Below, piece by piece: positions 5,377 through 18,863 of a stretch of 29,244 nucleotides of DNA. Within the stretch, counting starts at the first letter, position 1. The number at the start of each line of letters is the position of its first letter. The stretch covers positions 1-29,244 of IMG/VR virus record IMGVR_UViG_3300024177_000032; one strand, written 5' to 3'. The notes below the pieces were generated by a model that was given only the letters and a program-made list of their open reading frames with translations, searched no databases and was not told the origin of the DNA. A program made the translations under genes and the position numbers. The DNA is from a virus.

Positions 5377-7508
5377 TCCTCCTCAATCGACTCTATGTTC
5401 CCTTCCATATCCCGTTTGACGATTTTCTTCCTTGCCTTGGCTTCTGGCACCTTCAAGGTGATATTCGGTTCCAGCGTGATCTTCGGGGATTCGATCTTAA
5501 TAGTTGGCGGGCTTGCGGAGACATTGACGATGGGGACTTCTTGCTTGGGGACGTTCACGTTGACCGTCGGGGATGCTTGCCTGGGAACCTGGACGTTGAC
5601 AACAGGCGCGTCTTGCTTGGGAACCTGGACATTGATCGTTGGCGGGGCCTGTGGGGCCGACTGAACCGTTACCTGGGCCGGGGAAGACTGCACATTGACC
5701 GTCGGGGGCATCTGCTGGGGCACGTTCACGTTGATCGTGGGGGCGTCCTGCTTGGGCACGTTCACGGTCACCTGGGCGGGTCTAACATTCACCTCCGGGG
5801 CGGTGACGACGATGCGGGGGGCCGGCGTTGTGACGTTCACTATCGGCTGGGGCACATCCACGTTGATGATCGGGGACAAGGTAATGGATTGCTGGGCCTG
5901 AGATTCCCGCTTGGCGGCGTGTGCTTTTTCGAGAACCGCCGCGTGGCCATTGCTGAAATGCTTGCCCAATCGCCCGTTCATGTCCGACCCGTGCGTATCG
6001 GATTCCTCGCGGTGGCCGATAGCCGGCAATGTCCCGTGCGGCGTCTTCGGCGTCCTCTCCTCGTGGAGGCTCTCCCGCTCCCCGCTCAGCAGGTTCCCCA
6101 TCAGGCCGCCGCCCCCCATCATGCCTGGGACCATGCCCATCTTCTTCTGAAGCTCCATCATCTTCTTGGCCCGGTAGATGGCCGGGGACAATTCGCCGTC
6201 CTCGACTGGCTCGCGGCCCCTGAGCTCGCAAATCTGGTTAACCGTGATGGCGTCGGCCCCGATATCCACCTCAAGGTCGGAGTTCAATTGGGCGGCGTCA
6301 GCCGGCGAGCAATCGTCATACCATACGACGATGTCCGGCCACCATTTGCCAAACCACTTTGTATATGCCTGGCCCCGCATCTCAAGCGTGGGGTTCAAAG
6401 CATATTGAGCGAATTGGACCAGGGCAGCCTCGGAAGTGTTCCGCTGCACGTCCTGGGCGATGCCCACGACGAACTTGGGCACGCCGAATAGGGCCAGGAT
6501 GCAGTCCCTCAATTGATCTGCCGATTGAATGTAGTCCATTTCCCTGGGATTGATCATCATCGGCACGACCTTCATGCCTGGCGGCATAATGATCGGTTTA
6601 CCAGCCCTACGCTCCCCCTGGTAGCGGGATACCCATTTCTGCTCGACGCGGGAGATGTCCTCGTCGGACGGGTCGAAGAATTCCGGCCCCAACTCGATGG
6701 CGATGGACGGGAAAGAGCCTTGCTTCATCGTATGCCAGCGGGCCTGGTCGACGGATTCCGACGAGTCGATCCAGCGGGATCCGGCGTCCTCCGGGCTATA
6801 GCCGTCAATCTTCGATATGGGGGACTTGGCCGGGATATGGAGGACTTCCTCGGCCGGGAAGACCAATCGCTTGTAGCCGCCCTCGACCGGCCGAATCTCG
6901 TACTCGTCGATGATGTTCTCAGTCCCGACGACCGGCCAGACCCAATGGGAAGGGAGCACCCACATCTCCGCGCACGGTCCCAGCCCGTTCGGGGGCATCC
7001 AGATGTACTCGTTGCCGGTAGCGCACCCCATCAGCTCCTGCTCGTAGGCGAATTGATAATGGGTGTCGATCTTGTTCGGGTTGAGGAACTTCTCGGTGAT
7101 AGGATGGTAGGAAGGGGCTGGCTCCAGGACCTCGTCCTGGGCCATCGTCGGCAATCCCTTGCATACCCTGCCCAGGTACTTGAGCCTTTCCTGGTGGATG
7201 ATCTGCTTGCGGTAAGGCCCGTCGATATGCCACTTGCGGCGGGTTTCCGAGTATGCCTTCTGGCGGTAGGAGACGTTGGCGACCTGCTGGGCGATGACCT
7301 TGCAGCGGGCCTGGGCAGCGACGAAAACCCAATGGCGTATGTGGCGTACCAGTTCCGCCCTGTTCGCGGTCCAAGCCCCTGTCAATTGGCCTAATGATGG
7401 GCCGCGTGACAGCAAATCGGCGAGGACGCGGGCGGCGTTCCACCGCTTCTCGGAGGATGGCTCCCCCTGGATGGCCGTATGGCGCTGTTTCAGCAATCCT
7501 TGAAGCAT
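5373..7508 (-). CDS. Portal protein with long valine-proline repeat extension
   Basis: Residues 1 to about 480 match phage portal proteins of the HK97 gp3/SPP1 gp6 superfamily in order: a helical N-terminus, the LMGCATGNEYIWMPP region, a strand-rich clip region, the stem-like IPAKSPISKIDGYSPED segment, and the late ALFGVPKFVVGIAQDV...NTSEAALVQFAQYALNPTLE region typical of portals. The portal is the 12-subunit channel through which terminase pumps DNA. After a glycine/methionine-rich link (MVPGMMGGGG), residues about 530-690 form some ten repeats of a VNVxVPKQxxP pattern. It then ends in a basic and acidic tail. At 711 residues it is longer than most portals because of this extension. The likely promoter lies at 7551-7579. 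Confidence 0.9.
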   Translation of the reverse strand: MLQGLLKQRHTAIQGEPSSEKRWNAARVLADLLSRGPSLGQLTGAWTANRAELVRHIRHWVFVAAQARCKVIAQQVANVSYRQKAYSETRRKWHIDGPYRKQIIHQERLKYLGRVCKGLPTMAQDEVLEPAPSYHPITEKFLNPNKIDTHYQFAYEQELMGCATGNEYIWMPPNGLGPCAEMWVLPSHWVWPVVGTENIIDEYEIRPVEGGYKRLVFPAEEVLHIPAKSPISKIDGYSPEDAGSRWIDSSESVDQARWHTMKQGSFPSIAIELGPEFFDPSDEDISRVEQKWVSRYQGERRAGKPIIMPPGMKVVPMMINPREMDYIQSADQLRDCILALFGVPKFVVGIAQDVQRNTSEAALVQFAQYALNPTLEMRGQAYTKWFGKWWPDIVVWYDDCSPADAAQLNSDLEVDIGADAITVNQICELRGREPVEDGELSPAIYRAKKMMELQKKMGMVPGMMGGGGLMGNLLSGERESLHEERTPKTPHGTLPAIGHREESDTHGSDMNGRLGKHFSNGHAAVLEKAHAAKRESQAQQSITLSPIINVDVPQPIVNVTTPAPRIVVTAPEVNVRPAQVTVNVPKQDAPTINVNVPQQMPPTVNVQSSPAQVTVQSAPQAPPTINVQVPKQDAPVVNVQVPRQASPTVNVNVPKQEVPIVNVSASPPTIKIESPKITLEPNITLKVPEAKARKKIVKRDMEGNIESIEEE

Positions 7509-7550
7509 CGCTGGTCCCTGCGAAAAGGGCGGGATCCTGACGCGATACCT

Positions 7551-7579
7551 AGTTTACAGTAGCGGGATGGATAAGTAAA
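7551..7579 (-). promoter_or_regulatory. Promoter of the portal operon
   Basis: On the minus strand TTTACT (7579-7574) and TAAACT (7556-7551) are 17 bases apart, followed about 40 bases later by the portal ATG. The same pair of hexamers with the same spacing occurs on the plus strand before the glycine-rich gene at 28639. Confidence 0.6.
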
Positions 7580-7778
7580 GGTAGAATTCCAGGCTTTGGC
7601 CAACCCCTCGATTCTTCTTTGTCCATTAGGTGGGCAAAACGCAATTCGCCATTATTTGACAGCTTCCCGCCCCTACAAAGAAAGGCGTGACTTACCCACC
7701 GTTCAGGTCGCGTGGCGTAGCCCGCGACTGGATTGTTTTTCTTTATTGTTCTTCTGAATATGTTGTTCTTTATATATA
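7580..7778. other. Non-coding AT-rich leader with hairpin
   Basis: No convincing gene is seen here. A hairpin with arms GTCGCG (7707-7712) and CGCGAC (7723-7728) is followed on the plus strand by a T-rich run, so it would look like a terminator only for plus-strand transcription, for which no gene exists. From 7736 to 7778 the sequence becomes strongly AT-rich (TTTTTCTTTATTG, TATATATA) and abuts the 51-bp repeats. This could be the unwinding side of an origin, or simply an untranslated leader of the portal operon. Confidence 0.45.
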
Positions 7779-7880
7779 GGGTATCCAACTTTGGTATACC
7801 CTAGGGTATCCAGAAACTAGCTACCCTAAGGGTATCCAACTTTGGTATACCCTAGGGTATCCAGAAACTAGCTACCCTGA
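7779..7880. repeat. Two 51-bp direct repeats with internal dyads (possible iterons)
   Basis: Unit 1 (7779-7829) and unit 2 (7830-7880) differ by one base. Each contains GGGTAT and ATACCC arms around CCAA..TTGG, then AGGGTA...TACCCT, so GGGTA/TACCC words occur at least eight times in 102 bases on alternating strands. The repeats overlap the last codons of the winged-helix gene and adjoin an AT-rich tract. Tandem dyads next to an initiator gene and an AT-rich tract suggest an origin or an autoregulatory operator. A transcription terminator is less likely because no T run follows. Confidence 0.75.
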
Positions 7881-8368
7881 AAATCATCTTTTCCTGTTTT
7901 TGGGGATTTCAACAGCCTGATCGCTTTCAGGATCTCCTCATCGGGCAGGTTCGCCATCTCGTACACCTTTTCCACGGCAAGGTACAGCTTTTTGCTTCTG
8001 ATTTTGATCCACCGCTTTGCTGGCTGCCCCTGCCATTTGGTTGCGATGAAACCCCGGCTAATGAGCGATGCGAAAAGCCGTTGTTGCTTCCTCAATGGGA
8101 TAAAGAGATCTCGTAGGATCCTGCTTTTCTTGCAATAGAACCAGTGGTCGTGTCTTTCAGCTGCCCGGCATCCCCTCGCGTGGCTTATCAAATAGGACAG
8201 AAGAATGGCCTCGGTGTCGGACATGATACACAGGAACTGCTTAGGAAACTGAAACCAGTTCCCGGAATTGAACATTTCCCGGATCATGCCGTCTTTCCTT
8301 GGGTCGTATGCTTCGGAATGGTTGTTTGAATAGGGGTTCTTCTTTTGGCATCCGTTGCTTTCAGACAT
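7868..8368 (-). CDS. Winged-helix replication-initiator-like protein
   Basis: The ATG at 8368 (MSESNGCQKK) is preferred over the upstream start at 8449, which would lie in the inverted-repeat leader. The 166-residue product has a helical core with LSYLISHARGC, a recognition-like stretch (PLRKQQRLFASLISRG) and a wing, FIATKWQGQPAKRWIKI. The sequence FIxTKxxGxPAKRWIxI is typical of phage replisome-organiser and helix-turn-helix proteins. A role in starting phage DNA replication, or in control of its own promoter, is inferred. Repeats at its 3' end and a long inverted repeat in its leader support DNA-binding self-regulation. The stop codon lies within repeat unit 2. Confidence 0.7.
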   Translation of the reverse strand: MSESNGCQKKNPYSNNHSEAYDPRKDGMIREMFNSGNWFQFPKQFLCIMSDTEAILLSYLISHARGCRAAERHDHWFYCKKSRILRDLFIPLRKQQRLFASLISRGFIATKWQGQPAKRWIKIRSKKLYLAVEKVYEMANLPDEEILKAIRLLKSPKTGKDDFQGS

Positions 8369-9155: not shown

Positions 9156-9407
9156 TTAATCTTTGCACGCCGACACGACCAATTCACGAATGTCATCCAA
9201 TGGATCCTCGATCAGATGGTCATAGAATCCTTGTTTTGAAATGGATCCTGCGTACCTCAGCGAATCGAAGCGGTCATCAAAGTACTTCACCTTAACGTAA
9301 TTCTCGGTAAGATCTTCCACGATGACCCGAACGGTCTTGATATCCTTATCCCTCGGCCCCCAACCAACGCAATTCAGGGTGTACTCCCTGCCCACGACGA
9401 TATTCAT
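9156..9407 (-). CDS. Tagged small protein (KOW/SH3-like body)
   Basis: 83 residues with AAGGGGAAG before the ATG. The body (VVGREYTLNCVGWG, KTVRVIVEDLTENYVKVKYFD) has the strand-turn-strand character of a small beta barrel, like several cascade proteins. It ends with EDPLDDIRELVVSACKD, the C-terminal tag. This is one of only two tagged genes outside the 15-28 kb cascade, and it lies downstream of the guide-like array block at 9605-10058. Its start overlaps the stop of the 58-residue membrane protein gene. Role unknown. Confidence 0.75.
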   Translation of the reverse strand: MNIVVGREYTLNCVGWGPRDKDIKTVRVIVEDLTENYVKVKYFDDRFDSLRYAGSISKQGFYDHLIEDPLDDIRELVVSACKD

Positions 9408-9580
9408 GGCTGCTTCCCCTTCCTATTGCCGCCAAATTGGATTATCAGCAGGATGGGCACAACGATCAGCGCCAATGGCCAGAGGCAAGGCGTAAGCAGG
9501 AAGACGACAATGGCAGCCGTCAGCAGGGAAGCGTTGAGCTCCTGCCGGGACGCCGGGTCGTTGGAGATATGGATAGCCAT
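9404..9580 (-). CDS. 58-residue membrane protein with hydrophobic hairpin
   Basis: Frame from the ATG at 9580 to TGA at 9404-9406. The product has a polar start (MAIHISNDPASRQELN) and a hydrophobic core broken by a proline/cysteine turn (TAAIVVFLLTPCLWPLALIV), followed by a second hydrophobic run and a basic end. It looks like a two-helix hairpin. The stop overlaps the next start (ATGA). No strong ribosome site is visible. Such hairpins occur in phage holins and small membrane effectors, but nothing specific identifies this one. Confidence 0.55.
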   Translation of the reverse strand: MAIHISNDPASRQELNASLLTAAIVVFLLTPCLWPLALIVVPILLIIQFGGNRKGKQP

Positions 9581-9604
9581 AGATGCACTAAGGTAAAATC
9601 GCAG

Positions 9605-10058
9605 GCAATCTCCAATTTCGGTGGCATTCTGTCAATCGCCCGCAGATCCAAAAAAGATTGGGGGCATTAAGCTACACGGTCACAACGGATAGATCGCCTT
9701 CCAATCTCTATTATCGCCCGGCATCCTTTTTCTCGGTTTCAATGGCACTATCGCCCATGAATAGGAAGGGGCAAGGCTCTATACGTTTGCAGTCTTTTAC
9801 TCGTCCCATCCAAGGAAAATACTGGCGTTTGTGGCATTCGGTATCATCGCAGCATTCACCAGTATCGGACATCCATCCGCTCGGTATCAAATAGATCGTC
9901 GTCTTCCCATTGAAATTCGCTGGCGTACCTTTGTCCGGTTCCAAATACTTGTTCGCCAGCGAATGGCACGTACACTTTCGGTAACAAGGGGCGTATCGCC
10001 AAAAAGGAAATAGCAAACACCCTTAGACTCGATTCCAACGGGCTTATCATTCGCTATT
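9605..10058 (-). repeat. TIGR-like array, block C (nine elements)
   Basis: Elements on the minus strand follow GCGAN, spacer, 8-base loop, spacer, TGC or CGC. Plus-strand element starts (GCA/GCG side) are 9605, 9664, 9721, 9771, 9825, 9869 (weak), 9923, 9966 and 10013. Loops in plus reading include TCGGTTTC (9733), ACGGTCAC (9676), TCGGTAAC (9978), TCGGTATC (9838, 9881) and CCGGTTCC (9935). Spacers are 9 and 9 in most, 10 and 9 in two, and 13 and 13 in the one nearest the Tas-like gene (10013-10054). Some elements are closed by perfect stems, such as ATTCGCTG/CAGCGAAT at 9915-9922/9957-9964. Spacer sequences differ between all elements. Confidence 0.85.
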
Positions 10059-10061
10059 CCC

Positions 10062-10937
10062 TTACTTCTGCCATTCGATCCACAGGTTCTTGAGCAGCAG
10101 CTTGGCCGCCAAGAGCATTCCGTGCCGATGACATCTGAGATCAGAGTAGTCAGGGTGTGCTGCCTTGAACTCCTGTTTCTTCGCGTCATAGCGCTTGCGG
10201 TAGGGGCCTTCGCGATTCCCCTTGACCAGGTTCTCCCCGATCAGGTATGCGATGGACCGCCGCCGGGGGCTATACCCAAAAGCTTCCCATTCCGACGCGG
10301 GAAGCTTCCCTTCCTTGCCGAACCGCCACGTCGAGCCCATCAGCGTCTTGTCCTCGAACGTCCAGGGGGCGCATCCCATCCGCCGCCAGACTTTGCCGGG
10401 ATTGGCGTAGTTGGCGAAATCGCCGACCTCCCCGACGATGACGGCCAATGACGGCATGCCGAAGCCCCGCTGCTCAGGCAAGGCGACCCAGGCCGCGACG
10501 GGCAGCTTGGCAGCGAGTTTGCCCATCTCCTTTTCCAGGGACTTCTGCATCACGTCGAAGGCGTCAATGCCGATCAGCGTGGTCTTGACGACCCCGCTGA
10601 AGGGAGAGGAAATCTCGTCGTTGGCGATCTGCTTGATGACGGCGGACGCCTCCTGGAACTTTTTCAGGCGGTCCTTCTCGGCCATTGAGCTGGAGTAGCC
10701 CAGCGTGCCGGCGACGACGGACTGGAGTCTGTTGGCCTGCATGATCCGGCTCTTGATGATCACAGAACGCTGCCGCTGAAGAGCTTGCAATTCAGGAACG
10801 GCGGAGATCAGACGACGGCTCGGTAACACACTGGTAGTCGTCTCCGTCGCCCCAGGTTCCGCAGCGGCGGGCAACCCTTGACTCGGTTGCATATAGCCAT
10901 TCGTTCCCGCCGTTGTCGTTTCCAATGTCTCACGCAT
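10062..10937 (-). CDS. Tas-like protein: IS110-type C-terminal / Nop-like domain, no nuclease
   Basis: The ATG at 10937 follows CGGAGG and is preferred to the one at 10988. The 291-residue product has a disordered first 45 residues, a helical segment at 47-145 (ELQALQRQRSVIIKSRI, EKEMGKLAAKLP), then the IS110-family C-terminal domain at about 154-290: GFGMPSLAVIVGEVGDF (158-174), MGCAPW (187-192), YSPRRRSIAYLIGENLVK (222-239), and HGMLLAAKLLLKNLW (272-286). In IS110 transposases and in Tas proteins of TIGR systems this domain is related to the Nop domain of box C/D RNPs and binds structured guide RNA. The DEDD catalytic domain of IS110 is absent, and no RuvC or HNH motif is visible, so a TasA-like RNA-guided DNA-binding protein is inferred. 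Array blocks flank it on both sides. Confidence 0.8.
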   Translation of the reverse strand: MRETLETTTAGTNGYMQPSQGLPAAAEPGATETTTSVLPSRRLISAVPELQALQRQRSVIIKSRIMQANRLQSVVAGTLGYSSSMAEKDRLKKFQEASAVIKQIANDEISSPFSGVVKTTLIGIDAFDVMQKSLEKEMGKLAAKLPVAAWVALPEQRGFGMPSLAVIVGEVGDFANYANPGKVWRRMGCAPWTFEDKTLMGSTWRFGKEGKLPASEWEAFGYSPRRRSIAYLIGENLVKGNREGPYRKRYDAKKQEFKAAHPDYSDLRCHRHGMLLAAKLLLKNLWIEWQK

Positions 10938-11027
10938 AAACTGCCTCCGGTTAAAGGATGATGCGGGCAGTCTCCTAAACGGTTGCATCCAGCCACCCGC
11001 CCGCGAAATGGAACCTCAAAGAAAACG

Positions 11028-11519
11028 GCAACCTTTCACTCGTATTCATGGGGCGTGTCGCCGCGCTCTTTCTCATTATCGCCAGGCACTCATTGAATCG
11101 TTTTCATCGCGTCATTCGCCCGGCGATTACCGCAAAAAATGGGCATTACCACTATCGGTTTCAAGGAAAGTGTCGCCCATTGACTCAAACATGAGGCAAA
11201 GCCTTTGTCGGTTTCACAGCCCTATTCGCCGCAAGCCCAAGAAACTTTGCCCGCCGTGCTCCATCGATTGAGGAATACCGCCCCTTTCGGAACGGGATGA
11301 GTTGAATGGGCCACGGACGGGCAAATTCTATGGGGCACCGCTCTTTTCGGTCGCACGCTGGCCATCGCCCTAAAAGCATCAGGCACACCACTTCTCGATT
11401 GCAAAACCCAGGCCGCCCAATATGTCAATGGGGCAATAGGACTTTCGATTTCACACCGAGTATCGCCCCAAAAGCCCAGAAATATCATTGGCTTACTCGA
11501 TTGCAACATCATGATGGAT
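11028..11519 (-). repeat. TIGR-like array, block B (seven clear elements)
   Basis: Clear elements start (plus-strand GCA) at 11028, 11086, 11143, 11196, 11335, 11383 and 11433. Each has exactly 9 bases, an 8-base loop, 9 bases and an ATCGC-type edge. Loops in plus reading are TCGTATTC, TCGTTTTC, TCGGTTTC, TCGGTTTC, TCGGTCGC, TCGATTGC and TCGATTTC. A weak eighth copy has loop TCGATTGC at 11498-11505 with poor edges. The 105 bases between 11230 and 11334 hold no clear copy and may contain decayed ones. The block fills the whole interval between the 172-residue gene and the Tas-like gene, with no believable ORF of its own. Confidence 0.85.
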
Positions 11520-11530
11520 GTTCCTGGGCC

Positions 11531-12049
11531 TCACGCCGCCTTGCCCACTTCTTTCCTCACCTGGGCGAAGATACTTTGCAATTCGCCTTCGCTGATTACC
11601 TCCCTGACCGGCTTGGAAGTCGGAACCCTCGCGGCCAATGTCTCGCACAGCCTGGCATTGAACAGATGCCCGTCGGATACGCTGCGCTCCATCTCGGCGA
11701 TCTTCCGCAGGTCCTTGCCGCACAATAGGCCAAGCTGCGTGCCCCCGATAAAATAATCGTAAACAGAGCGGAAGGCCCGGCCCACGGCCTCGGATTCTGC
11801 CGGAACAACCTTCGGGATGCCCACCCTGGCGTAATAGCCAACATCCCGCTTCATCTGAACATTGGCAGCGTGCCTGGCATTGTAAACCAACCCACGAATG
11901 GCGTCCTGAATAAGCGAACTGATCAGATCATCGAATTCTGGCATTGCTCGAATTTCTTGCTCGGCTTGGTTTACAGCAGCCTCGATATCGCCCCCGTGAT
12001 CAAGGGCCGCTTTTTGGGCGGCATCAAGAACTTCTTGCGGCATTTTCAT
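11531..12049 (-). CDS. Unrecognised 172-residue protein between array blocks
   Basis: ATG at 12049 has a strong TTGGGAGG site. The product is almost wholly helical: MKMPQEVLDAAQKAALDHGG, a DLISSLIQDAIRGLVYNARHA helix region, a conserved-looking GRAFRSVYDYFIGGTQLG segment and KLCETLAARVP-like repeats at the C-terminal side. No nuclease, zinc or membrane motif is visible. It is encoded directly after array block A, under the same promoter, and directly before array block B and the Tas-like gene. That placement makes it a candidate accessory factor of the array system, such as a processing or stability factor, but function is unknown. Confidence 0.75.
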   Translation of the reverse strand: MKMPQEVLDAAQKAALDHGGDIEAAVNQAEQEIRAMPEFDDLISSLIQDAIRGLVYNARHAANVQMKRDVGYYARVGIPKVVPAESEAVGRAFRSVYDYFIGGTQLGLLCGKDLRKIAEMERSVSDGHLFNARLCETLAARVPTSKPVREVISEGELQSIFAQVRKEVGKAA

Positions 12050-12066
12050 TGAATGCCTCCCAAAAG

Positions 12067-12327
12067 AAGGCGTTGCAATTTCATAGTCGGTTTCATAGTC
12101 ATAATCGCAACGCCTTCACGATCCTATTATCGGAGAAAGGGAAGCATAACCATCGGTCGGCTTCACGTCATCACCCGCTCCCCATTTCCCGAAATGCCGC
12201 AACGCACCATACCGATCACAACAAGGAGATCGCGGCAAATCTGTACGGCCACACTCGGTTTCATATCCGGTTTCGCGAATAGGCCCAGCACTATCCTCTA
12301 CGGTAACAACAACTCAATCGCCGGGCC
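12067..12327 (-). repeat. TIGR-like array, block A (five elements)
   Basis: Elements in plus coordinates: 12075-12108 (loop TCGGTTTC, spacers 9/9, stem AAGGCGTT/AACGCCTT), 12144-12178 (TCGGCTTC, 10/9), 12199-12233 (CCGATCAC, 10/9, stem TGCC/GGCA), 12243-12276 (TCGGTTTC, 9/9), and 12288-12321 (ACGGTAAC, 9/9, stem GGCCC/GGGCC). The block begins only about 10 bases after the predicted transcription start of the promoter at 12344-12372 and ends right before the ribosome site of the 172-residue gene. Confidence 0.85.
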
Positions 12328-12343
12328 TTCCCCCTTACATGCT

Positions 12344-12372
12344 ATTATAGGTATCCAAACCCCGGAAGTAAA
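12344..12372 (-). promoter_or_regulatory. Promoter of the array / Tas-like transcription unit
   Basis: TTTACT (12372-12367) and perfect TATAAT (12349-12344) with 17-base spacing on the minus strand. It lies just downstream of a terminator and reads straight into array block A. Confidence 0.85.
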
Positions 12373-12380
12373 GGACATGA

Positions 12381-12420
12381 AAAGAAAAAGGGCCGAACGG
12401 CAACCCTGCCGAATCGGCCC
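12381..12420 (-). terminator. Rho-independent terminator upstream of the array unit
   Basis: On the minus strand GGGCCGA (12420-12414), inner CGGCA/TGCCG arms and TCGGCCC (12396-12390) form a strong hairpin followed by TTTTTCTTT (12389-12381). It ends transcription from the right and insulates the array promoter, whose -35 box starts 9 bases further on. Confidence 0.85.
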
Positions 12421-12452
12421 AGATCGCCCAGGCGGACGACCGTTCCCTTACC

Positions 12453-12487
12453 GCTATGTCCCCACACGTATTCAGAACTCCAATCGC
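12453..12487 (-). repeat. Isolated TIGR-like element upstream of the terminator
   Basis: Plus reading: GCT (12453-12455), 10-base spacer, loop ACGTATTC (12466-12473), 9-base spacer, ATCGC (12483-12487), closed by CC/GG. It lies between the Ig-like gene and the terminator, so it would be carried on the upstream transcript. The rest of 12421-12586 holds no gene that I trust. Confidence 0.6.
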
Positions 12488-12586
12488 GGCAAGAACAAAA
12501 ATCCGCCACATGCTCCCACTCGTTAGCAAATCTTCTATCGCGGCGGAAAAATTCAAAGGGCATTGCAGTCGCAACGCTCCTTTTTT

Positions 12587-13075
12587 CTACGGCTGCTCGA
12601 CCGGCGTGCCCACGTCGATATCCAGCGTGGTGGCGGCCCCGGCGTTGATCAGGACGTCGATGGTCTTGGCGGCGACGGTGGACCCGTCGGCCCCGACCAA
12701 CTTCACGGTTACGTTGCATTCGCCCAACGGCCCAGCGGCAGCGACTACGCACGACATGCCGTCGGCCGAGGGCGTGACGCTGAGGAGCGCTGGATTGTCG
12801 GTCAGATACACGACAGAGCCGGGTGGAAGGGGCGTCGGGTTGTTCTTCTTGTCCTTAGCGCCCTTGACGGTGATGGGAAACTGCTGAGAATCGGGAAGCA
12901 CGATGTCGGCCACGAATTCGTCTCCTTGGTGCTTGAACGCCCCTCCCCAATGCCGGCACCTTGCCAGGATTGACGGAACAGGCTGGGTTTGCTCTGTAAA
13001 GGGTCCTACGGTGATAGATAGGCAGATTCGCCTCTTGCCACGAAGCCAGTCCCAGAAATCGCTGAGGCAATTCAT
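12587..13075 (-). CDS. Ig-like domain protein
   Basis: 162 residues from an ATG with GAGGTGG upstream. The first 55 residues (FWDWLRGKRRICLSITVG, CRHWGGAFKHQGDEF) form a distinct head. From residue about 60 the pattern FPITVKGAKDKKNNPTPLPP, then VVYLTDNPALLSVTPSADG and TVAAKTIDV is that of bacterial Ig-like (BIG2-type) domains: strands with L.VTPSADG and a final TxxxDV. Such domains decorate phage capsids and tails and may hold the virion to host surfaces. The gene closes a short operon whose upstream members encode the 398-residue protein and two small proteins. Confidence 0.7.
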   Translation of the reverse strand: MNCLSDFWDWLRGKRRICLSITVGPFTEQTQPVPSILARCRHWGGAFKHQGDEFVADIVLPDSQQFPITVKGAKDKKNNPTPLPPGSVVYLTDNPALLSVTPSADGMSCVVAAAGPLGECNVTVKLVGADGSTVAAKTIDVLINAGAATTLDIDVGTPVEQP

Positions 13076-13084
13076 CGGGCCACC

Positions 13085-13267
13085 TCACTTGAGATTGGCA
13101 TTGGCTTCCTTGGCGTCAGGCTCGGATAGGACGGTCGGCGGCTTGGCCTTGGCCAGGGCAGGGAACTCAATGATGTCCTTGCCGTCCTTGGACCTAATGA
13201 TGCATTGACCGATCTCGGTCTCGGCGTTCTGGCCTTTCAGGGACATGATAACGTCGAAGATTGTCAC
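13085..13267 (-). CDS. Unrecognised 60-residue protein
   Basis: GTG start at 13267 preceded by AGGAGG at a good distance. The product has a regular beta start (MTIFDVIMSLKGQNAETEIGQ), a middle CIIRSKDGKDIIEFPALAK and a proline/alanine-rich end. It precedes the Ig-like gene by 9 bases and may encode a small structural partner. No family is recognised. Confidence 0.6.
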   Translation of the reverse strand: MTIFDVIMSLKGQNAETEIGQCIIRSKDGKDIIEFPALAKAKPPTVLSEPDAKEANANLK

Positions 13268-13305
13268 TCGGATTCCTCCTTTGAAAACGGGTCACGATAC
13301 GAAAT

Positions 13306-13397
13306 GGCTGCTTACAGACGGCTTTTGCCCCAACCAACGTAGCACTATTCCTGCAAGCAGCCGGGCATGGCCAGATTGTTAGGGACCTGCCATACCC
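13306..13397. repeat. Two adjacent inverted repeats of unknown role
   Basis: Arms GGCTGCTT (13306-13313) and AAGCAGCC (13355-13362) enclose 41 bases. Immediately next, GGGCATGGC (13363-13371) and GCCATACCC (13389-13397) form a second dyad with one mismatch. No T run follows, so neither is a clear terminator. Their position beside a true array element (13404-13463) suggests decayed relatives of the array, but their loops do not match its consensus. Confidence 0.55.
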
Positions 13398-13403
13398 AAT
13401 GAT

Positions 13404-13463
13404 CCAAGGGCGTCGGCACCTCGGATGTCGATTGCAATCGGACATTCGCCAAAACGCCCTTGG
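13404..13463 (-). repeat. TIGR-like element D1 with long closing stem
   Basis: Core in plus reading: GCA (13416-13418), 9 bases, loop TCGATTGC (13428-13435), 9 bases, TTCGC (13445-13449). Around it CCAAGGGCGT (13404-13413) pairs with ACGCCCTTGG (13454-13463). It lies between the 83- and 60-residue genes. Confidence 0.8.
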
Positions 13464-13473
13464 ATTTCTCTTG

Positions 13474-13725
13474 CTACACGGTCGGCGGGGCGGGATCGGC
13501 AGTGACCGTCCATCCCAAGTCCGACATCAGGCTCGCCACGAACGGCACCCCCTGGGCGTCCCAGGAGCCGCGAATCTTCTCGATGAGCGGATCGACCAGC
13601 GTCGTCGCCAGCCAGCCCTGGCCCAAGCGATCCTCCAGCCAGGTGAAGGCTGCGTCGCCCACTGCCTGAATCTGACCTTGGGAATCCGACGCCGAGCCCG
13701 GAACCGCGAGCTTTTTGCCATCCAT
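13474..13725 (-). CDS. Unrecognised 83-residue protein
   Basis: ATG with AAGGAGATA upstream, an excellent ribosome site. The product runs from MDGKKLAVPGSASDSQGQ through a tryptophan-bearing helical middle (AAFTWLEDRLGQGW, LIEKIRGSWDAQG) to a proline-ended tail (TADPAPPTV). It is probably soluble and compact. Array element D1 follows its stop and D2 precedes its start, so it is expressed on a transcript that begins with D2. Confidence 0.65.
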   Translation of the reverse strand: MDGKKLAVPGSASDSQGQIQAVGDAAFTWLEDRLGQGWLATTLVDPLIEKIRGSWDAQGVPFVASLMSDLGWTVTADPAPPTV

Positions 13726-13768
13726 ACGAATATCTCCTTTGGAATTGATGGGCGATTAGTGGGTAAAT

Positions 13769-13810
13769 GTAGGCACCTTAAGGTTCGATTTCAAAGAGAT
13801 TCTCGCCTAC
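13769..13810 (-). repeat. TIGR-like element D2
   Basis: Plus reading: stem GTAG (13769-13772), GCA, 9 bases, loop TCGATTTC (13785-13792), 9 bases, CTCGC (13802-13806), stem CTAC. A TATAAT box on the minus strand at 13823-13818 would start RNA at the outer edge of this stem, which parallels the promoter-to-array layout at 12344. Confidence 0.8.
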
Positions 13811-13830
13811 GCTAATTATTATAGGAAAAC

Positions 13831-13896
13831 AAAAATCCTCCCAGGATGCGACCCCTTTAATCGGCTTCAGCTTTACATTCGCATCCTAGGATTTTT
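13831..13896 (-). repeat. TIGR-like element D3, also a terminator
   Basis: Plus reading: GCG (13848-13850), 10 bases, loop TCGGCTTC (13861-13868), 9 bases, TTCGC (13878-13882). Its stem AGGAT/ATCCT is extended by AATCCT/AGGATT and bordered by A/T runs (13831-13835 and 13892-13896). It begins at the base after the stop of the 398-residue gene, so it could end that transcript as a hairpin plus T run. Confidence 0.75.
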
Positions 13897-15093
13897 CTAC
13901 CCACACCCGCCGCATGGCGCGGCCGGCATGGCCTGGGCATCTGCCATCATCTTCAATAGCTGGGGCGTGAGCGTGACCTCGATATCCTTGCCGCAAGCCG
14001 CCATGTGCTCGGCATTGGGCGGGATGAGCGAGCAGAACAGCGCGGCGGCCGGCTGCCATTTGGCCGGCAGGCTACCGATCTGACTGCACAAGCCCCGCAG
14101 GATAGGCAGGAGCCAGGGCGGGATCGAGAGCGTCTGGGCCTGGGCAGCCGATCCGGTGACCGTGAGGGCAGGAATCTTCACCAGCGGCATGCCGAACAGG
14201 TAGCCGACCTGGTCGGGAATGTTGACCGTAAACGTCTGCGGGGCGGGCGTCGGTGTGGGCGTGGGGACAGGCACGGGAACGGGAACGGGAACCGGCGTAG
14301 GGTTATTGAGTGGGTAGGGCGGGAGCGGGGCGTTGAACGGATTGTCACCATTGATCTGGCCTACAGCATGAACGGCCGCCTTGAAATCGGCGAACGCAGT
14401 AGTCTTGGACGTCAGGGCCGCGTAGTTGGAGGAAAGGACGCCCGTCGGCTCCCCGGCCTGGACAATCTTGTCCACAGTGAAGCCCATCTTGGTCATCCAC
14501 CAAAGGTAGAGGACGCCGCAGCCGATGGAGGGGTAATCGCCATCCGTACCCTGATCGCGGCTGATCCAATCCGTGCCGTCCCAGGATGGGCCGGAAGCGT
14601 AATCCCGCAAGGCCCCGTTGGGGCCGCCGGAGACGATCTCGGCAAGGAACCGGCTGAGGGATTCGCCGCCGCTGCCGCCGCAGTTCCAGCCGCGATTCTG
14701 AAGGCCCATGTAAGACTCGGTGACCTCGGCCATGATAAGGCCGAAGGTGGTCTGGTCGCCCTCGACGTCCTCATACCAGTCGCCGCCATCGCTGAAAGAA
14801 CAGCCATAGTGGTACGCCCCGCCGCCGGTATCGGCGATGATGACGTTGCCGCCCTGGCCCCGGACGCCGAAGGCCCAATCGCAATACGCCATCAAGTCGT
14901 CAATCCTCGCCAGGGCATACTTGGCGGCGGAAAGGCCAGTGGCTCCTGTCGCGGGATCATAGTAAATCGTGACGGGCCTGCCGTCGCTTCCTTTCCAGCT
15001 GGACGTCCCGACCAAACTCGTCGGGTAATCAAATCCGCTGGCGGACTTCGCCTTGACCGCCATCTTCTGGCCTTTCTTGAGCATCACTCGCAT
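13897..15093 (-). CDS. Unrecognised 398-residue protein with proline-threonine linker
   Basis: Excellent AAGGAGAA before the ATG. Residues 20-235 form an aromatic, glycine-rich alpha/beta domain: YYDPATGATGLSAAKYALAR, then YCDWAFGVRGQGG and GSGGESLSRFLAEI. The layout, a strand-rich start then AEVTESYMG and a GGES...FLAE helix, recalls a metallopeptidase fold of the BSP type with its first active-site His missing, but this is only a weak impression. A low-complexity linker (VPVPVPVPVPTPTPTPAP, about 265-285) leads to a C-terminal domain with a hydrophobic segment and a final CGGCG. Linker architecture is typical of virion-exposed or cell-wall-acting proteins. Not assigned. Confidence 0.75.
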   Translation of the reverse strand: MRVMLKKGQKMAVKAKSASGFDYPTSLVGTSSWKGSDGRPVTIYYDPATGATGLSAAKYALARIDDLMAYCDWAFGVRGQGGNVIIADTGGGAYHYGCSFSDGGDWYEDVEGDQTTFGLIMAEVTESYMGLQNRGWNCGGSGGESLSRFLAEIVSGGPNGALRDYASGPSWDGTDWISRDQGTDGDYPSIGCGVLYLWWMTKMGFTVDKIVQAGEPTGVLSSNYAALTSKTTAFADFKAAVHAVGQINGDNPFNAPLPPYPLNNPTPVPVPVPVPVPTPTPTPAPQTFTVNIPDQVGYLFGMPLVKIPALTVTGSAAQAQTLSIPPWLLPILRGLCSQIGSLPAKWQPAAALFCSLIPPNAEHMAACGKDIEVTLTPQLLKMMADAQAMPAAPCGGCG

Positions 15094-15129
15094 GCGGGTT
15101 CTCCTTGGATTTAGGAAGTAAAACGTATA

Positions 15130-15330
15130 TTACTTAGAAGCCTTTTTGACCAATTCACTGATTTCAAGCAAGGGGTTTTCCTCCTCATACATTTGCCAGA
15201 TCGTCTCGAACGTCCAAACTACCGGGTAGCCGAACAGGTACGCCCCTTCGTCTTTCTTGAACCATCCGTTCTTATGGTGCTCCGCATACCCGGCGGCCAT
15301 CAGCAATTCCTTCTTTCGCTCGTCGGTCAT
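15130..15330 (-). CDS. Tagged 66-residue protein
   Basis: Start overlaps the previous stop (ATGA). Body: a basic helical start (MTDERKKELLMAAGYAEH) and an aromatic middle (LFGYPVVWTFETIWQM). The C-terminus ENPLLEISELVKKASK is a diverged tag: PL, I, LV and the final A are kept, while the usual AC is AS. It is the last tagged gene of the cascade. Confidence 0.7.
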   Translation of the reverse strand: MTDERKKELLMAAGYAEHHKNGWFKKDEGAYLFGYPVVWTFETIWQMYEEENPLLEISELVKKASK

Positions 15331-15629
15331 TTCCCCTGCTCCTTGTCCTTGACCGTTTCGAGGTGCCTTACGGCCTCCATGACCAGCCGCTCGATCTTGG
15401 GCTTGGTGTTCGCCATCGTCTCCGGGGCGTCGCTCTCGGATGTCGTCAATGATTCCAGCCAGGAGAGCATGGCCCCGTAAAGGTATAGTACGGTTTTCTC
15501 ATTGGCAGTCTTCGACTTCTCGATGAGGTCCTTGATCTCCCCTTCGGCGTCTGGGAGCTCCTTGAGCATGCCGGCGGACACGAAGGAGCCCAGCCACGAG
15601 GACATCCTGCCCAGATGATACAAGGTCAT
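15327..15629 (-). CDS. Unrecognised 100-residue helical protein with internal repeat
   Basis: The ATG at 15629 follows AGGAG by 14 bases. A TTG nine bases earlier would sit at 5 bases and could be the true start. The sequence contains an internal duplication, YHLGRMSSWLGSF near residue 4 and YLYGAMLSWLESL near 47, so the body is a repeated helix pair. No tag. The upstream spacer contains the 28-bp tandem duplication. Confidence 0.65.
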   Translation of the reverse strand: MTLYHLGRMSSWLGSFVSAGMLKELPDAEGEIKDLIEKSKTANEKTVLYLYGAMLSWLESLTTSESDAPETMANTKPKIERLVMEAVRHLETVKDKEQGK

Positions 15630-15650
15630 GGGATTCAAATCGGCTCCTGG

Positions 15651-15706
15651 TTCAGAAAGGGATATCGTCCTTGTCGGTTTCAGAAAGGGATATCGTCCTT
15701 GTCGGT
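15651..15706. repeat. 28-bp perfect tandem duplication
   Basis: Copies 15651-15678 and 15679-15706 are identical. The second contains the stop codon of the gene at 15680, so the first copy is only extra spacer before the next gene. Because 28 is not a multiple of three, it would have shifted the frame had it fallen inside a gene. Confidence 0.95.
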
Positions 15707-16021
15707 TTCCCTGAGCAATTTCTTCATCTCGATGAAGCAATCGTCCACGTAGATCAGTTTCTGCAATTCCCCCTTGAGGGCTTGCTCCAGATCGTTCAGG
15801 GCGGAATATTTATTCCTGGCGGCGTTCACCTGCTGCTGAAATTCCTGCTGCTTCTCCAATGTCTTCTGCCGCTCGAATATGCAAATCCGCAACCGCTCGA
15901 CAACATCGAGGATTCGCTTGGAATTGTCGTCAAGCAACGCCATATTGACCATGCGCTCAGTTACAGTTATCGGCATATCGATAACAACCTTTCCATTGCC
16001 GCTCAAAATATTTGTATTCAT
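15680..16021 (-). CDS. Coiled-coil protein, 113 residues
   Basis: ATG at 16021 overlaps the previous stop (ATGA). An in-frame earlier ATG exists at 16033. After a beta start (NILSGNGKVVIDMPITV) the protein is a long coiled coil: ILDVVERLRICIFERQK, KQQEFQQQVNAARNKY, LEQALKGELQKLI. It ends ETDKDDIPF with no tag. Likely an oligomeric accessory; family unknown. Confidence 0.7.
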   Translation of the reverse strand: MNTNILSGNGKVVIDMPITVTERMVNMALLDDNSKRILDVVERLRICIFERQKTLEKQQEFQQQVNAARNKYSALNDLEQALKGELQKLIYVDDCFIEMKKLLRETDKDDIPF

Positions 16022-16323
16022 TTCGCATGCCATAATTTGGATGCCAGTGGGCCTTTCCGCTCTTCCTTGGGCATCCCCAATTCCCATTTGCGGACCATTT
16101 CATCCATCGCTCTATCCACGTCCATGACCCCGTCTTCCTTGAGTCGTGCCTTCAGGCTATTGACATGATCCTTGAACCCCGGCGAGCAGGCACTGCATAC
16201 GCCCAGCCCCTCGTGGGCCAATCTGTAGATGGTTCCCAAATGACCGCTATCATCCGCTTGCTGCAAGGCGATCCCCTCTATTATCGCCAGGGCCGTCGCC
16301 AAGCGTATTTCCAGGTCAGTCAC
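16018..16323 (-). CDS. Helical protein with CSAC motif, 101 residues
   Basis: GTG start at 16323 overlaps the upstream stop (GTGA). The sequence is helical throughout (TDLEIRLATALAIIEGIALQ, VDRAMDEMVRKWELG), with one CSAC pair in the middle and a basic end. No tag is present. It lies between a tagged gene and the coiled-coil gene. Confidence 0.65.
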   Translation of the reverse strand: MTDLEIRLATALAIIEGIALQQADDSGHLGTIYRLAHEGLGVCSACSPGFKDHVNSLKARLKEDGVMDVDRAMDEMVRKWELGMPKEERKGPLASKLWHAK

Positions 16324-16493
16324 TCTTCGCACGCTTTCTCGACCAATTCCTCAATGTCCCGTAAAGGGTCGCGAGGGATGTATCCCATCTCTTCCATTTT
16401 CCTCTTCATCATCTTGAGGAATTGCTCCTTGCTAATGGCCTTCATGTCCAACATGGCGTTCGCGGTTTGCATCAGGGTGGCCAATTCATCCAT
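16320..16493 (-). CDS. Tagged small helical protein
   Basis: Start taken as ATG at 16493 (MDELATLMQTANAMLDM). A GTG at 16514 overlapping the previous gene has a better AGGG site and would add seven residues. Methionine-rich helix (QFLKMMKRKMEEMG) followed by RDPLRDIEELVEKACEE. Body function unknown. Confidence 0.65.
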   Translation of the reverse strand: MDELATLMQTANAMLDMKAISKEQFLKMMKRKMEEMGYIPRDPLRDIEELVEKACEE

Positions 16494-16503
16494 ATTGTAT
16501 TGA

Positions 16504-16776
16504 TCAGTCTTCACATGCCCTATCCACGAGGTTCTTGATGTCTTCCAAAGGATCCTTCGGGCTGAATAACTGGGCAAATGCCAATTCAAATTCAGCCTGT
16601 TTCCCAGCTTCTAAATTCCTATCAAGCATAAGAAGGTAGACATCCCCGGCCTGGACCAAACCACATATCATATTCACGTAAACCATGCTGCTATCCAGCT
16701 TTTCCAATCCCCGACATGCTGCGAATGTGTTTATGATGGCCCCAAAAATATTGATGCAAATAATTGTAGTGTTCAT
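16504..16776 (-). CDS. Tagged membrane-type protein
   Basis: 90 residues; ATG at 16776 or 16785. The N-terminus is a hydrophobic helix (TTIICINIFGAIINTFAA) and a second hydrophobic part follows (VYVNMICGLVQAGDVYLLML), so this tagged protein may sit in the membrane. The tag DPLEDIKNLVDRACED has a 23-base DNA identity (16517-16539) with the internal tag of the gene at 1582. It lies directly after the terminase nuclease gene. Confidence 0.65.
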   Translation of the reverse strand: MNTTIICINIFGAIINTFAACRGLEKLDSSMVYVNMICGLVQAGDVYLLMLDRNLEAGKQAEFELAFAQLFSPKDPLEDIKNLVDRACED

Positions 16777-16778
16777 GG

Positions 16779-17663
16779 CTACCATACACGGAGTCGCTGC
16801 ATGCCTCTTTCACCAAAGAAGAGTGCCAAAGCCACTGCCATGACGAGATCGTCGTGCGCCTGCCCCTCGGCCCCGGCGGTCTCGTTGGCGGCCTTGGTGA
16901 TTCGGATCTTAAATTCCCGCAATTCCTGGAGCAGCAATTCGACCTCCGGGATGCCCGCCGCGAAGCCCAGCCTCCCGGTCTCCAACATCACCGTCAATAG
17001 CCCGACCAATTCCATCTTGGGGACGTGGAAGCCCTTCGGCTCCTCGGTCACGGCCTTGCCGCCGGTGATGAGGATGGGCACGATCCTGATGCCCAAGCGA
17101 GCCCGCTGGAACATCTCCACGACCGGCTCGCCAACGCCACCCCAGTCTACGACCAGGACCGATTTCCCCTCTACTATTATAGGATGCTGGCAAAGCCTCT
17201 TGACGTACTTCACAATGTCAATGTAATCCGTGCCCAGGGGGAATTGCCTTAGCGCCCTGCCCTTGTAGTTGCGGACGAAATCCTTGGGCTTGTCCGTGGG
17301 CTCGGCTGGCGTCATGCCGTCATCGAAGGCCACCTCCCCAGCCCGGTAGGGATTAAGCTTGGAGGTAAGGTCGCCGCCTTGGGGCTTCTTGTCCCAGGGA
17401 TTTTCAATGGGCTTGAGGTCAACCAGGGCGTGACCGCCTTCCTTAAGCCTTATCGTGGCCAGGTACTGCTGGCAGTTCTTGCAGCTGCACGGAGATTCCT
17501 TCATTCCGCCTGGGTTCTCTTCCTCGATAAATCGCTTGGTGACAAGGCAACGGACTTTTGAGATGGGCTCAGCAACTGGCTCTAAGGGCATATCGACGCG
17601 CTCAATAAACGCGAGCGCTGCGAAATCTGATCTTTTTCCGAGGTCCAAGCCAAGGATATTCAT
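16779..17663 (-). CDS. terL (nuclease part): Terminase large subunit, nuclease half
   Basis: 294 residues from the ATG at 17663, which overlaps the tagged gene upstream. It begins with the RNase H-like nuclease core: MNILGLDLGKRSDFAALAFI (first acid D7 and D13), then VLVVDWGG (D173) and near the end HDDLVMAVALALFFGE (D271/D272), the three acidic positions of TerL nucleases that cut concatemers during packaging. Between the first and second acids, residues about 48-135 are an insertion with CSCKNC (59-64). No ATPase domain precedes it. That half is encoded 2.15 kb upstream at 19816-20733, so the enzyme is split and must associate in trans. Confidence 0.85.
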   Translation of the reverse strand: MNILGLDLGKRSDFAALAFIERVDMPLEPVAEPISKVRCLVTKRFIEEENPGGMKESPCSCKNCQQYLATIRLKEGGHALVDLKPIENPWDKKPQGGDLTSKLNPYRAGEVAFDDGMTPAEPTDKPKDFVRNYKGRALRQFPLGTDYIDIVKYVKRLCQHPIIVEGKSVLVVDWGGVGEPVVEMFQRARLGIRIVPILITGGKAVTEEPKGFHVPKMELVGLLTVMLETGRLGFAAGIPEVELLLQELREFKIRITKAANETAGAEGQAHDDLVMAVALALFFGERGMQRLRVW

Positions 17664-17860
17664 TTGCACGCCTCATCGACAAGGTCCGCGATATCCTCCA
17701 GCGGATCGTCAACCAGCCCAGCCATGAGCCATTCCTTATTGTATTCGTTGCTGGCCCTAGTCGCCTCGTCGTAGGAGATATCGACGCAATTGAATACGGC
17801 CATCTGGAACTCATAAGGAGTTCCGTGCTTTTCCTTCAATTTTCGTTGCGCCCTATTCAT
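17660..17860 (-). CDS. Tagged 66-residue protein
   Basis: Both ends overlap neighbours by ATGA. The body is a charged helical module (MNRAQRKLKEKHGTPYEF, SNEYNKEWLMAGLV) and the end DDPLEDIADLVDEACK is a full match to the tag. It directly precedes the terminase nuclease gene and is likely to supply its ribosome site. Confidence 0.75.
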   Translation of the reverse strand: MNRAQRKLKEKHGTPYEFQMAVFNCVDISYDEATRASNEYNKEWLMAGLVDDPLEDIADLVDEACK

Positions 17861-18252
17861 TGGTCCGCCCTTTCGACCAGGTTCCCGATCTCATATAGCT
17901 TGTCCTGCTCCAGCATCTCCTCGTAGACCTTGTGCAATTCGGACATCCGCCTGCCGAAATCATACCAGGCCGTGACATTGATGTCGATGCGGCATAAACT
18001 TATTCCCGGCTGAACAATGTGCAATTCCTCAGATTCGACCAGGAACCTGAATACATCCCTTTCGTGGATATGCTCCATCCCAACGATCTTAAACTTCCCC
18101 GGATCCAGGGCCTTGCCGTCGTATTCATATTCCACGCTCAAATGGCACGCAACCCAATCATGGCGGAACAGGTAGGGCATGTACTCCCTGGGGATCTCCA
18201 AATACGCCATCCGCTTCTCGTGTTTATTGTCATCCAGCATCTCGATTAGCAT
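17857..18252 (-). CDS. Protein with diverged tag, 131 residues
   Basis: ATG at 18252 with GAGGGCG upstream, overlapping the previous gene by 7 bases. The body has mixed alpha/beta character (KRMAYLEIPREYMPYLFR, HLSVEYEYDGK, INVTAWYDFGRRMSEL). It ends EQDKLYEIGNLVERADQ, where DPL has become DKL and the AC has become AD, while I, LV and A are kept. Confidence 0.7.
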   Translation of the reverse strand: MLIEMLDDNKHEKRMAYLEIPREYMPYLFRHDWVACHLSVEYEYDGKALDPGKFKIVGMEHIHERDVFRFLVESEELHIVQPGISLCRIDINVTAWYDFGRRMSELHKVYEEMLEQDKLYEIGNLVERADQ

Positions 18253-18476
18253 GAATCGCCCTCGCAAGCGTCCTCGACCAGGGCCTTGACGTCTTTCAAG
18301 GGGTCGTCGCTGATCTCCACGTACTTCTCGACGGTATAGGACATCACATCACCAACCTTCCATTGGAACGAAAGGCTCCTCACGTTCATCCGCTCCTCGC
18401 CGAGCAGTCGCAAGATCTTGCGGATGACCTCCCGGCCTTTCGCAGAATTGCTTGCTAGAATCGTAGACATAAGCAT
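18246..18476 (-). CDS. Tagged 76-residue protein
   Basis: Starts in TAATG with the previous stop. Short basic-helical body (STILASNSAKGREVIRKIL, ERMNVRSLSFQWKVGD) with a beta tail before SDDPLKDVKALVEDACEGDSC. Six residues follow the AC. Confidence 0.7.
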   Translation of the reverse strand: MLMSTILASNSAKGREVIRKILRLLGEERMNVRSLSFQWKVGDVMSYTVEKYVEISDDPLKDVKALVEDACEGDSC

Positions 18477-18862: not shown

Positions 18863-18863
18863 A

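Follow-up and report, generated by a model that had tools for sequence, protein, structure and literature searches.

TIGR-TasA systems with stem-loop arrays have been described by Faure et al. 2025 (PMC12045711) from a Peromyscus leucopus gut contig, in which a solo Nop protein is accompanied by many stem-loops lying in sub-arrays around tas, and in which variable palindromic stems take the place of the edge repeats. The same paper lists as open questions how the arrays originate and change, where the spacers come from, what the nuclease-less TasA does, and what the natural targets are. The locus analysed here, in a window of 29,244 nt (IMGVR_UViG_3300024177_000032; all coordinates refer to the whole window), shares these structural features, as well as a loop of conserved length and sequence, which PMC12045711 mentions for some arrays. 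It thus belongs to the published kind, and the system itself is therefore not new. It differs from the P. leucopus system in its box C, which is CGA rather than the canonical CCA, a variant absent from the main text of PMC12045711, and in having in-frame guide units in tas, a conserved second gene and apparent spacer replacement. These last three, together with the mixture of array types within one clade, go beyond that main text. As a whole, the locus is very probably a phage TIGR-TasA system with a stem-loop guide array. A preliminary description of this DNA had proposed a TIGR-Tas system, and the two-spacer array, the Nop/Tas effector and the covarying stems all support that proposal; it had not noticed the guide units inside tas, the partner gene or the replacement of spacers.

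A stem-loop guide array on the minus strand

Each unit follows the grammar stem-CGA-N9-TG-NNNN-CGA-N9-TG-stem, in which a closing stem encloses two 9-nt spacers, A and B. Each spacer is preceded by a box C (CGA) and followed by a box D (TG), with a 4-nt loop between the two halves, and the TG and CGA boxes of the loop repeat recur at the stem end. The loop repeat, first taken to be 8 bases long, is better read as 9 bases, TG-NNNN-CGA. A relaxed scan, which allowed box mismatches and spacers of +/-1 and scored the stem, placed 26 units within 9606-13881. All of them lie on the minus strand, which is also that of tasA and the partner gene (Table 1), and neither strand has any further unit in the rest of the 29-kb window. 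This agrees with the at least 25 minus-strand copies counted before and with the spacer length of 9 given for most of them (9+9 in 23 of the 26 units, 9+10 in 3). That the copies are non-coding is correct for most, but not for all, because units 10872 and 10809 lie within the tas coding sequence.

We counted 16 matches to the exact grammar CGA-N9-TG-N4-CGA-N9-TG in the window, always on the minus strand, and none in 30 simulated sequences; the reversed pattern has no occurrence in the window. Fifteen of the 16 matches fall within 9722-13805, and the one at 5454, which lies in the portal gene and has no stem, is probably due to chance. A scan of the window with a covariance model, as suggested in the preliminary description, recovered 19 units at E <= 0.03 (15 of which were in the training set), all in the array region and on the minus strand. 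The guide units matched no Rfam family. Mutated boxes are present in several window units, which may be dead, and weak stems in some units.

Covariation of the closing stems, on which the earlier reading had been made to depend, is very strong: across 92 units from nine phage sequences it amounts to 0.762 compared to 0.213 after shuffling, with 270 both-side changes against 103, and all eight pairs have changes on both sides. The copy-to-copy variation of the stems, which it was thought might set this variant apart, is a published property of the TIGR stem-loop array, the subtype in which a variable but palindromic sequence replaces the edge repeat (PMC12045711). The boxes also change in a coordinated manner, being TG/CGA at both positions here and having the canonical CCA at both in the more distant relatives L093 and L096; boxes changing together have been reported for TIGR (Faure 2025, PMC12045711). 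Unlike CRISPR-Cas, with its cas genes and single-spacer repeats, the units carry two spacers, and the window protein has no PADLOC match.

Table 1 Features of the locus (CM, covariance model)
Feature	Position	Core	Strand	Evidence
tasA, 291-aa solo Nop-domain (TIGR-associated) protein	10062..10937		-	ATG 10937, GGAGG upstream
Conserved partner gene, 172 aa, no known family	11531..12049		-	Iterated profile search, 31 homologous ORFs
Guide unit, 3' box D = TC	13839..13891	13850-13881	-	CM, relaxed scan
Guide unit	13764..13815	13774-13805	-	Exact grammar; CM E 6e-6
Guide unit	13407..13458	13417-13448	-	Exact grammar; CM E 2e-4
Guide unit, 7-bp stem	12499..12550	12509-12540	-	Exact grammar; CM E 2e-4
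Degenerate guide unit	12455..12486		-	Relaxed scan only, two box mismatches
Guide unit	12279..12330	12289-12320	-	CM E 5e-4, outside training set; relaxed scan
Degenerate guide unit, spacer B 10 nt	12135..12187	12145-12177	-	Relaxed scan
Guide unit, 10-bp perfect stem	12066..12117	12076-12107	-	Exact grammar; CM E 3e-7
Guide unit, 5' box C = CCA	11476..11527	11486-11517	-	Relaxed scan, long stem, one mismatch
Guide unit	11424..11475	11434-11465	-	Exact grammar; CM
Degenerate guide unit	11384..11415		-	Relaxed scan
Guide unit	11326..11377	11336-11367	-	Exact grammar; CM
Guide unit	11187..11238	11197-11228	-	Exact grammar; CM
Guide unit	11134..11185	11144-11175	-	Best CM score, 42.9 bits
Guide unit	11077..11128	11087-11118	-	Exact grammar; CM
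Guide unit	11019..11070	11029-11060	-	Exact grammar; CM
Possible further guide unit	10958..11009		-	CM E 0.03 only
Guide unit in frame inside tasA, codons 12-22	10862..10915	10872-10903	-	Exact grammar; CM; in-CDS census
Guide unit in frame inside tasA, codons 33-43	10798..10850	10809-10840	-	Exact grammar; CM; in-CDS census
Guide unit, 5' box C = TGA, 14-bp stem	10018..10049		-	Relaxed scan
Guide unit	9957..10008	9967-9998	-	Exact grammar; CM
Degenerate guide unit, 9-bp stem	9924..9955		-	Relaxed scan
Guide unit	9860..9911	9870-9901	-	Exact grammar; CM
Degenerate guide unit, 8-bp stem, spacer B 10 nt	9826..9858		-	Relaxed scan
Guide unit	9712..9763	9722-9753	-	Exact grammar; CM
Degenerate guide unit	9665..9696		-	Relaxed scan
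Guide unit, spacer B 10 nt	9596..9648	9606-9638	-	CM E 0.005, outside training set; relaxed scan

TasA, its predicted structure and its putative role

The 291-residue protein had been suggested to be a Nop/Tas relative that lacks a catalytic domain, and both suggestions hold. The TasA family profile (A3) matches TaTasR (9mty) at 4.4e-12 and TasH at 3.2e-6. A structure prediction from the single sequence reached a pLDDT of 42 and was replaced by an AF2 model with alignment input (pLDDT 84), for which Foldseek returned TasH as the best match (E 1.6e-4, TM 0.5-0.6), followed by IS110 recombinases. Residues 1-38 are predicted to be disordered, with helices in the model from residue 41 on; the N-terminal DEDD RuvC-like catalytic domain is absent from both sequence and model, and no nuclease domain was found, whether a Pfam nuclease, RuvC or HNH. 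Judged by its sequence, TasA belongs to the TasR/TasH family as a nuclease-less solo Nop-domain protein. It shares with TIGR-TasR (TaTasR, PDB 9mty) and TasH (PDB 9w03/9w04/21kl) the homologous Nop domain, two-spacer guides and paired C/D boxes, and with TasR also the 9-nt spacers, but has neither their RuvC or HNH domain nor a dual-repeat array.

The second-best folds, a PHROG 'transposase' match at 2.8e-7 and weak matches of 9 of 25 family members to Pfam Transposase_20 could also be explained by a degenerate, decaying IS110-family transposase, with the repeats as its bridge RNAs or ends, and IS110 transposases with a bridge RNA (IS621, ISCro4) do have a related Nop-like RNA-binding domain and a two-guide RNA. 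We nevertheless regard this as extremely improbable: the DEDD catalytic part of those enzymes is missing and the N-terminus is predicted to be disordered, TasR and TasH score better, and in place of one bridge RNA there are dozens of units with all-different spacers, in line with the differing spacers reported before.

By analogy with published relatives of the TIGR-TasA system, transcripts across the region, including the tasA mRNA, would be cut into small RNAs, each of which would be bound by a TasA dimer through its two pairs of C/D boxes. The two spacers would then each pair with a different strand of an 18-bp DNA target, which would read as spacer B followed by the reverse complement of spacer A, and the DNA would be bent by the complex. 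Because TasA has no nuclease, its most likely role would be that of an RNA-guided roadblock on competing mobile-element DNA, or on host or phage promoters.

Matching the spacer pairs to candidate DNA, as had been advised, gave no target in the loci, four genomes, IMG/VR or phage records. Within the own and related loci, 59 matches with <=2 mismatches (overlapping loci being counted twice) compare with 31-50 for shuffled pairs, which is no clear excess; 18 target 18-mers had no full match in four genomes with related tas, and three window targets had 2, 2 and 0 matches in IMG/VR, which is chance level. None of six mycobacteriophage targets matched in full among 50,697 phage records, in which the positive control was found, and nor did the two of these six that were searched in the other spacer order. 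Since no spacer target was found in the sequences searched, competition between elements is proposed only by analogy. The same result, along with the snoRNA-like plan of the units and the missing nuclease, could be taken to mean that a box C/D-like guide system acts here on RNA, regulating transcripts of the host or the phage, and not on DNA. This seems unlikely to us, given that DNA is what TasR and TasH act on (PMC12045711) and that we saw no sign of an RNA-modifying partner; no methyltransferase is matched by the partner gene.

Spacer replacement in related loci

Searches with the single protein returned no loci. Searching IMG/VR with the unit pattern, at the DNA level alone, succeeded, and the multi-unit contigs found in this way encode tas homologs (phmmer 1e-62 to 1e-109). 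We discarded the pattern matches in L049, which are a coding tandem repeat with no tas; H4 (Faecalibacterium phage Roos) proved to be an ordinary IS110 transposase, and the Phycocomes row of the tree, translated in a wrong frame, was disregarded. A single protein clade contains dual-repeat-like arrays as well as stem-loop ones.

Roughly 69 mycobacteriophages are related. Among 13 mycobacteriophages whose tas is 97-100% identical, unit 1 carries nine different spacer pairs. Duplicated blocks show scaffold identities of 85/92, 98/110 and 38/42 compared to spacer identities of 9/36, 18/54 and 4/18; non-identical spacers are near background, and whole cassettes of spacer pairs recur between phages. 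By these sequence comparisons, spacers in the relatives are replaced wholesale within unchanged scaffolds. As the spacer differences show no adenine bias by eye, we rejected mutagenesis of the DGR type.

Among the mycobacteriophage spacers, a few of unit 1 and unit 4 look related. This would be expected if the spacer differences arose by ordinary fast drift and diversifying selection with no exchange, and selection could indeed be strong on spacers that pair with targets. For the spacer-replacement part of our reading we consider this a doubtful, if serious, alternative, as it sits poorly with scaffolds that are kept in duplicated blocks where spacers are not, with non-identical spacers at near background, and with pairs that recur as whole cassettes. 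Wholesale replacement would in part answer the question of how arrays change, namely that spacers change as units within fixed scaffolds. Moreover, all four questions listed above can be taken out of metagenome contigs and into cultured phages that share a laboratory host, M. smegmatis mc2 155, namely the mycobacteriophages Euphoria, Rajelicia, Rufus and Rich (a further cultured carrier is Rhizobium phage RHph_X2_25), so that the origin and purpose of the guides become testable in laboratory phages.

Guide units within tas and a conserved partner gene

The window units 10872 and 10809 lie in frame inside tasA. Across the clade, 22 of 156 exact units are within tas coding sequences, and all nine in-CDS spacings are divisible by 3; mycobacteriophage Rich has five units inside its annotated genes gp50 and gp51, three of them in gp50. 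Such units might simply be protein repeats (xKPxxxxP) that resemble guides only at the DNA level, and the N-tail peptides are indeed alike (MKP/LKP/VKP...P). This is very unlikely to account for the in-frame units, which occur in two different frames, giving KP-P from one and ETE/ETD from the other, and which are located in the disordered tail, in a single variable loop and in the C-tail; stems of 8-16 bp flank them in Rich, and the same element with covarying stems fills the non-coding DNA. Because guide units are in frame inside tasA, the effector mRNA may itself be a guide precursor, an unusual dual use of one message; processing of guides from it would, speculatively, limit TasA production and so provide a built-in feedback on the TasA level.

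An iterated profile search of the related loci found 31 ORFs homologous to the partner gene. They neighbour tas, with very few exceptions on its upstream side, and nearly all related loci have such a homolog next to tas; in Euphoria, tas is gp70 and the partner-like gene is gp71. The gene has no family match in Pfam, NCBIfam, PHROG or PDB. The arrangement resembles the TIGR-TasA/tasParB operon (PMC12045711), where TasA also has a conserved neighbouring gene and arrays surround both, but the partner here has no ParB match by HMM searches of Pfam, NCBIfam and PDB (27 members against Pfam and PDB), and tasParB loci have dual-repeat rather than stem-loop arrays. The partner protein could be speculated to serve guide exchange or the effector step. 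We tentatively put forward, as one possibility, that active exchange rewrites the 9-nt spacers while sparing stems, boxes and linkers, with the partner acting in exchange or in the effector step and the tasA mRNA serving as guide precursor. The partner would add a second component to a system that, as described, generally has one protein.

Guide units and their link to the Tas protein

The 29,244-base window, an IMG/VR virus record, holds terminase, portal and head genes and is coding almost entirely on the minus strand, where the unit reads stem-CGA-N9-TG-NNNN-CGA-N9-TG-stem, with CGA as box C, TG as box D and the two N9 stretches as spacers A and B. Without mismatches, this grammar occurs 16 times in the window, 15 of them in the array region, and is absent from 30 simulations; the reversed pattern has no match in the window. 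A relaxed scan, which allowed box changes and scored the stem, found 26 units and none elsewhere on either strand of the window. The preliminary description was correct in the count, location and strand of the units. A covariance model recovered 19 units at E <= 0.03, every one within the array region, and the spacer pairs of all 26 units are mutually different. A single stemless instance of the exact grammar in the portal gene (covariance model E 0.8) is probably due to chance.

Covariation in the closing stems, proposed earlier as a check, is present: in a gap-free alignment of 92 exact units from nine sequences it scored 0.762 against 0.213 after shuffling, with 80.3% of closing-stem cells paired (50.1% when shuffled, about 40-45% when slid) and 270 both-side changes compared to 103. 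The profile and structure-prediction checks suggested for the protein likewise led to Tas proteins. The family profile matches the solved structures TasR (9mty, 4.4e-12) and TasH (3.2e-6) by sequence, and the fold matches of a model built from 25 aligned homologs (pLDDT 84) are, in order, TasH, IS110 recombinases and Nop5. Residues 1-38 are disordered in the model, and the window protein has no nuclease domain. We conclude that this 291-aa protein is TasA.

Searching IMG/VR DNA with GCGA-N9-TGAAACCGA-N9-TGC, and thus using no protein information, gave ten contigs with at least three exact units, nine of which encode a tas homolog (phmmer 1e-62 to 1e-109); in the tenth, L015, tas was not found within the part examined. 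Pattern matches in another contig, L049, were dropped as a coding repeat. A protein-alignment search yielded 26 loci, and in these loci units and tas share one strand. Judged from these sequence comparisons, unit and protein belong together. The locus is a member of TIGR-Tas, namely a TasA with stem-loop arrays, and the reading of the array units as guides is well supported.

Positions of features in the window
Feature	Position	Strand	Remark
Guide array, relaxed scan	9606-13881	-	26 units
Exact units of the array	9722-13805	-	15 units
tas (tasA)	10062-10937	-	291 aa
Partner gene	11531-12049	-	172 aa
Stemless exact grammar	5454-5485	-	in portal gene
Small ORFs with shared tail	9156-28400	-	e.g. 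16320, 16504, 21369, 24959
Tandem duplicate	15660-15710	-	end of ORF 15680-16087
Terminase large subunit	19816-20913	-

Box C is CGA throughout the window's clade and the canonical CCA in more distant relatives, and its two copies are identical within each locus, an agreement described generally for TIGR systems (Faure et al. 2025, PMC12045711). Array types are mixed within this single protein clade: in loci L075/L029 and L076/L030 the units are arranged in tandem, their edges resemble one another and the closing stems measure 2-3 bp; in most others the edges are unlike and the stems have medians of 4-9 bp, with a maximum of 16. This fits the intermediate stage proposed in the same paper.

A recurrent partner gene

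Of the genes in the window, only tas and the partner gene recur across related loci. An iterated search returned 31 ORFs homologous to the partner, nearly always upstream of tas and, in closer relatives, about 120-700 bases away; Pfam, NCBIfam, PHROG and PDB gave no family match. The gene upstream of tas in mycobacteriophages and a Gordonia phage is weakly similar to it. TIGR systems are described as generally having one protein, the exception being a ParB-like partner (PMC12045711); the partner found here has no ParB match.

Spacer turnover

In three duplicated blocks within loci, chosen on flank identity without use of the spacers, the scaffolds agree at 85/92, 98/110 and 38/42 positions and the spacers at only 9/36, 18/54 and 4/18, as for unrelated sequences (Fisher, 7e-14, 5e-13 and 4e-7). 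Spacer identity is at background in 22 pairs with flank identity of at least 85%, and no spacer A or spacer B is shared among 156 units. About 69 mycobacteriophages carry a tas homolog, in some cases under the annotation 'transposase'. Thirteen of these phages, with 96.6-100% tas identity and almost invariant unit 1 stems, carry nine different spacer pairs in unit 1, and their non-identical spacers are just 32-37% identical. Entire cassettes reappear in different mycobacteriophages, and in unit 4 spacer A is sometimes kept while spacer B differs. These alignments favour replacement of spacers rather than step-by-step drift. The pattern could have arisen by exchange from phage to phage, through a process dedicated to it, or under very strong selection.

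In mycobacteriophages L106, L108-L109 and L112-L121, the 'transposase' or hypothetical gene near a Cas4-like exonuclease encodes a Tas homolog and has upstream of it a stem-loop array with some five units; these arrays are mosaics built from shared cassettes.

Guide units within the tas gene

The tas coding sequence contains 22 of the 156 exact units (16 loci), and the clade's partner gene contains none. Placed by protein alignment, 11 lie in the N-tail, 4 in the C-tail and 7 in a single loop, which is flanked by conserved helices and equivalent to window residues 241-244. Spacings between neighbouring units are divisible by 3 in 9/9 cases inside the coding sequence and 44/95 outside, and the internal units are restricted to two frames, both avoiding the loop TGA as a stop. 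The window tas has two in-frame units (codons 12-22 and 33-43), both downstream of its start at 10937, which has GGAGG upstream. Mycobacteriophage Rich, which is cultured, carries five units within its annotated genes gp50 (Tas) and gp51; their stems measure 8-16 bp, and the opposite strand has no unit. Gordonia phage Morrissey gp42 contains one unit, and Rhizobium phage RHph_X2_25 has two. According to the main text of PMC12045711, arrays are located upstream of tas, downstream of it or on both sides, and units inside the gene are not mentioned there; relative to that text, the locus has features absent from the published account.

Targets and proposed function

On the published cleavage rules, we took the target to consist of spacer B and then spacer A in reverse complement. 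Such targets gave nothing significant in related loci, four genomes with a related tas, IMG/VR, or a phage collection in which a positive control was found; they may contain mismatches or be located in unsampled elements. Most likely, the TasA system would work as an RNA-guided DNA binder without cleavage, supplied by many exchangeable guides, some of them cut out of TasA's own message. We infer guide processing, DNA binding and the purpose of the system by analogy with relatives.

Other observations

At least 18 otherwise unlike small ORFs of the window share the C-terminal tail DPL-x-DI-xx-LV-xx-AC, possibly a common localisation, assembly or stability tag, and GAAACCGACAAGGACGATATCCCTTTCTGAA forms a tandem duplicate at the end of one ORF. 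The terminase large subunit is nearest to those of Meiothermus and Thermus phages (about 37%). Faecalibacterium phage Roos (L003) encodes an ordinary IS110-type transposase at 7182-8357 and also has a reverse transcriptase gene.
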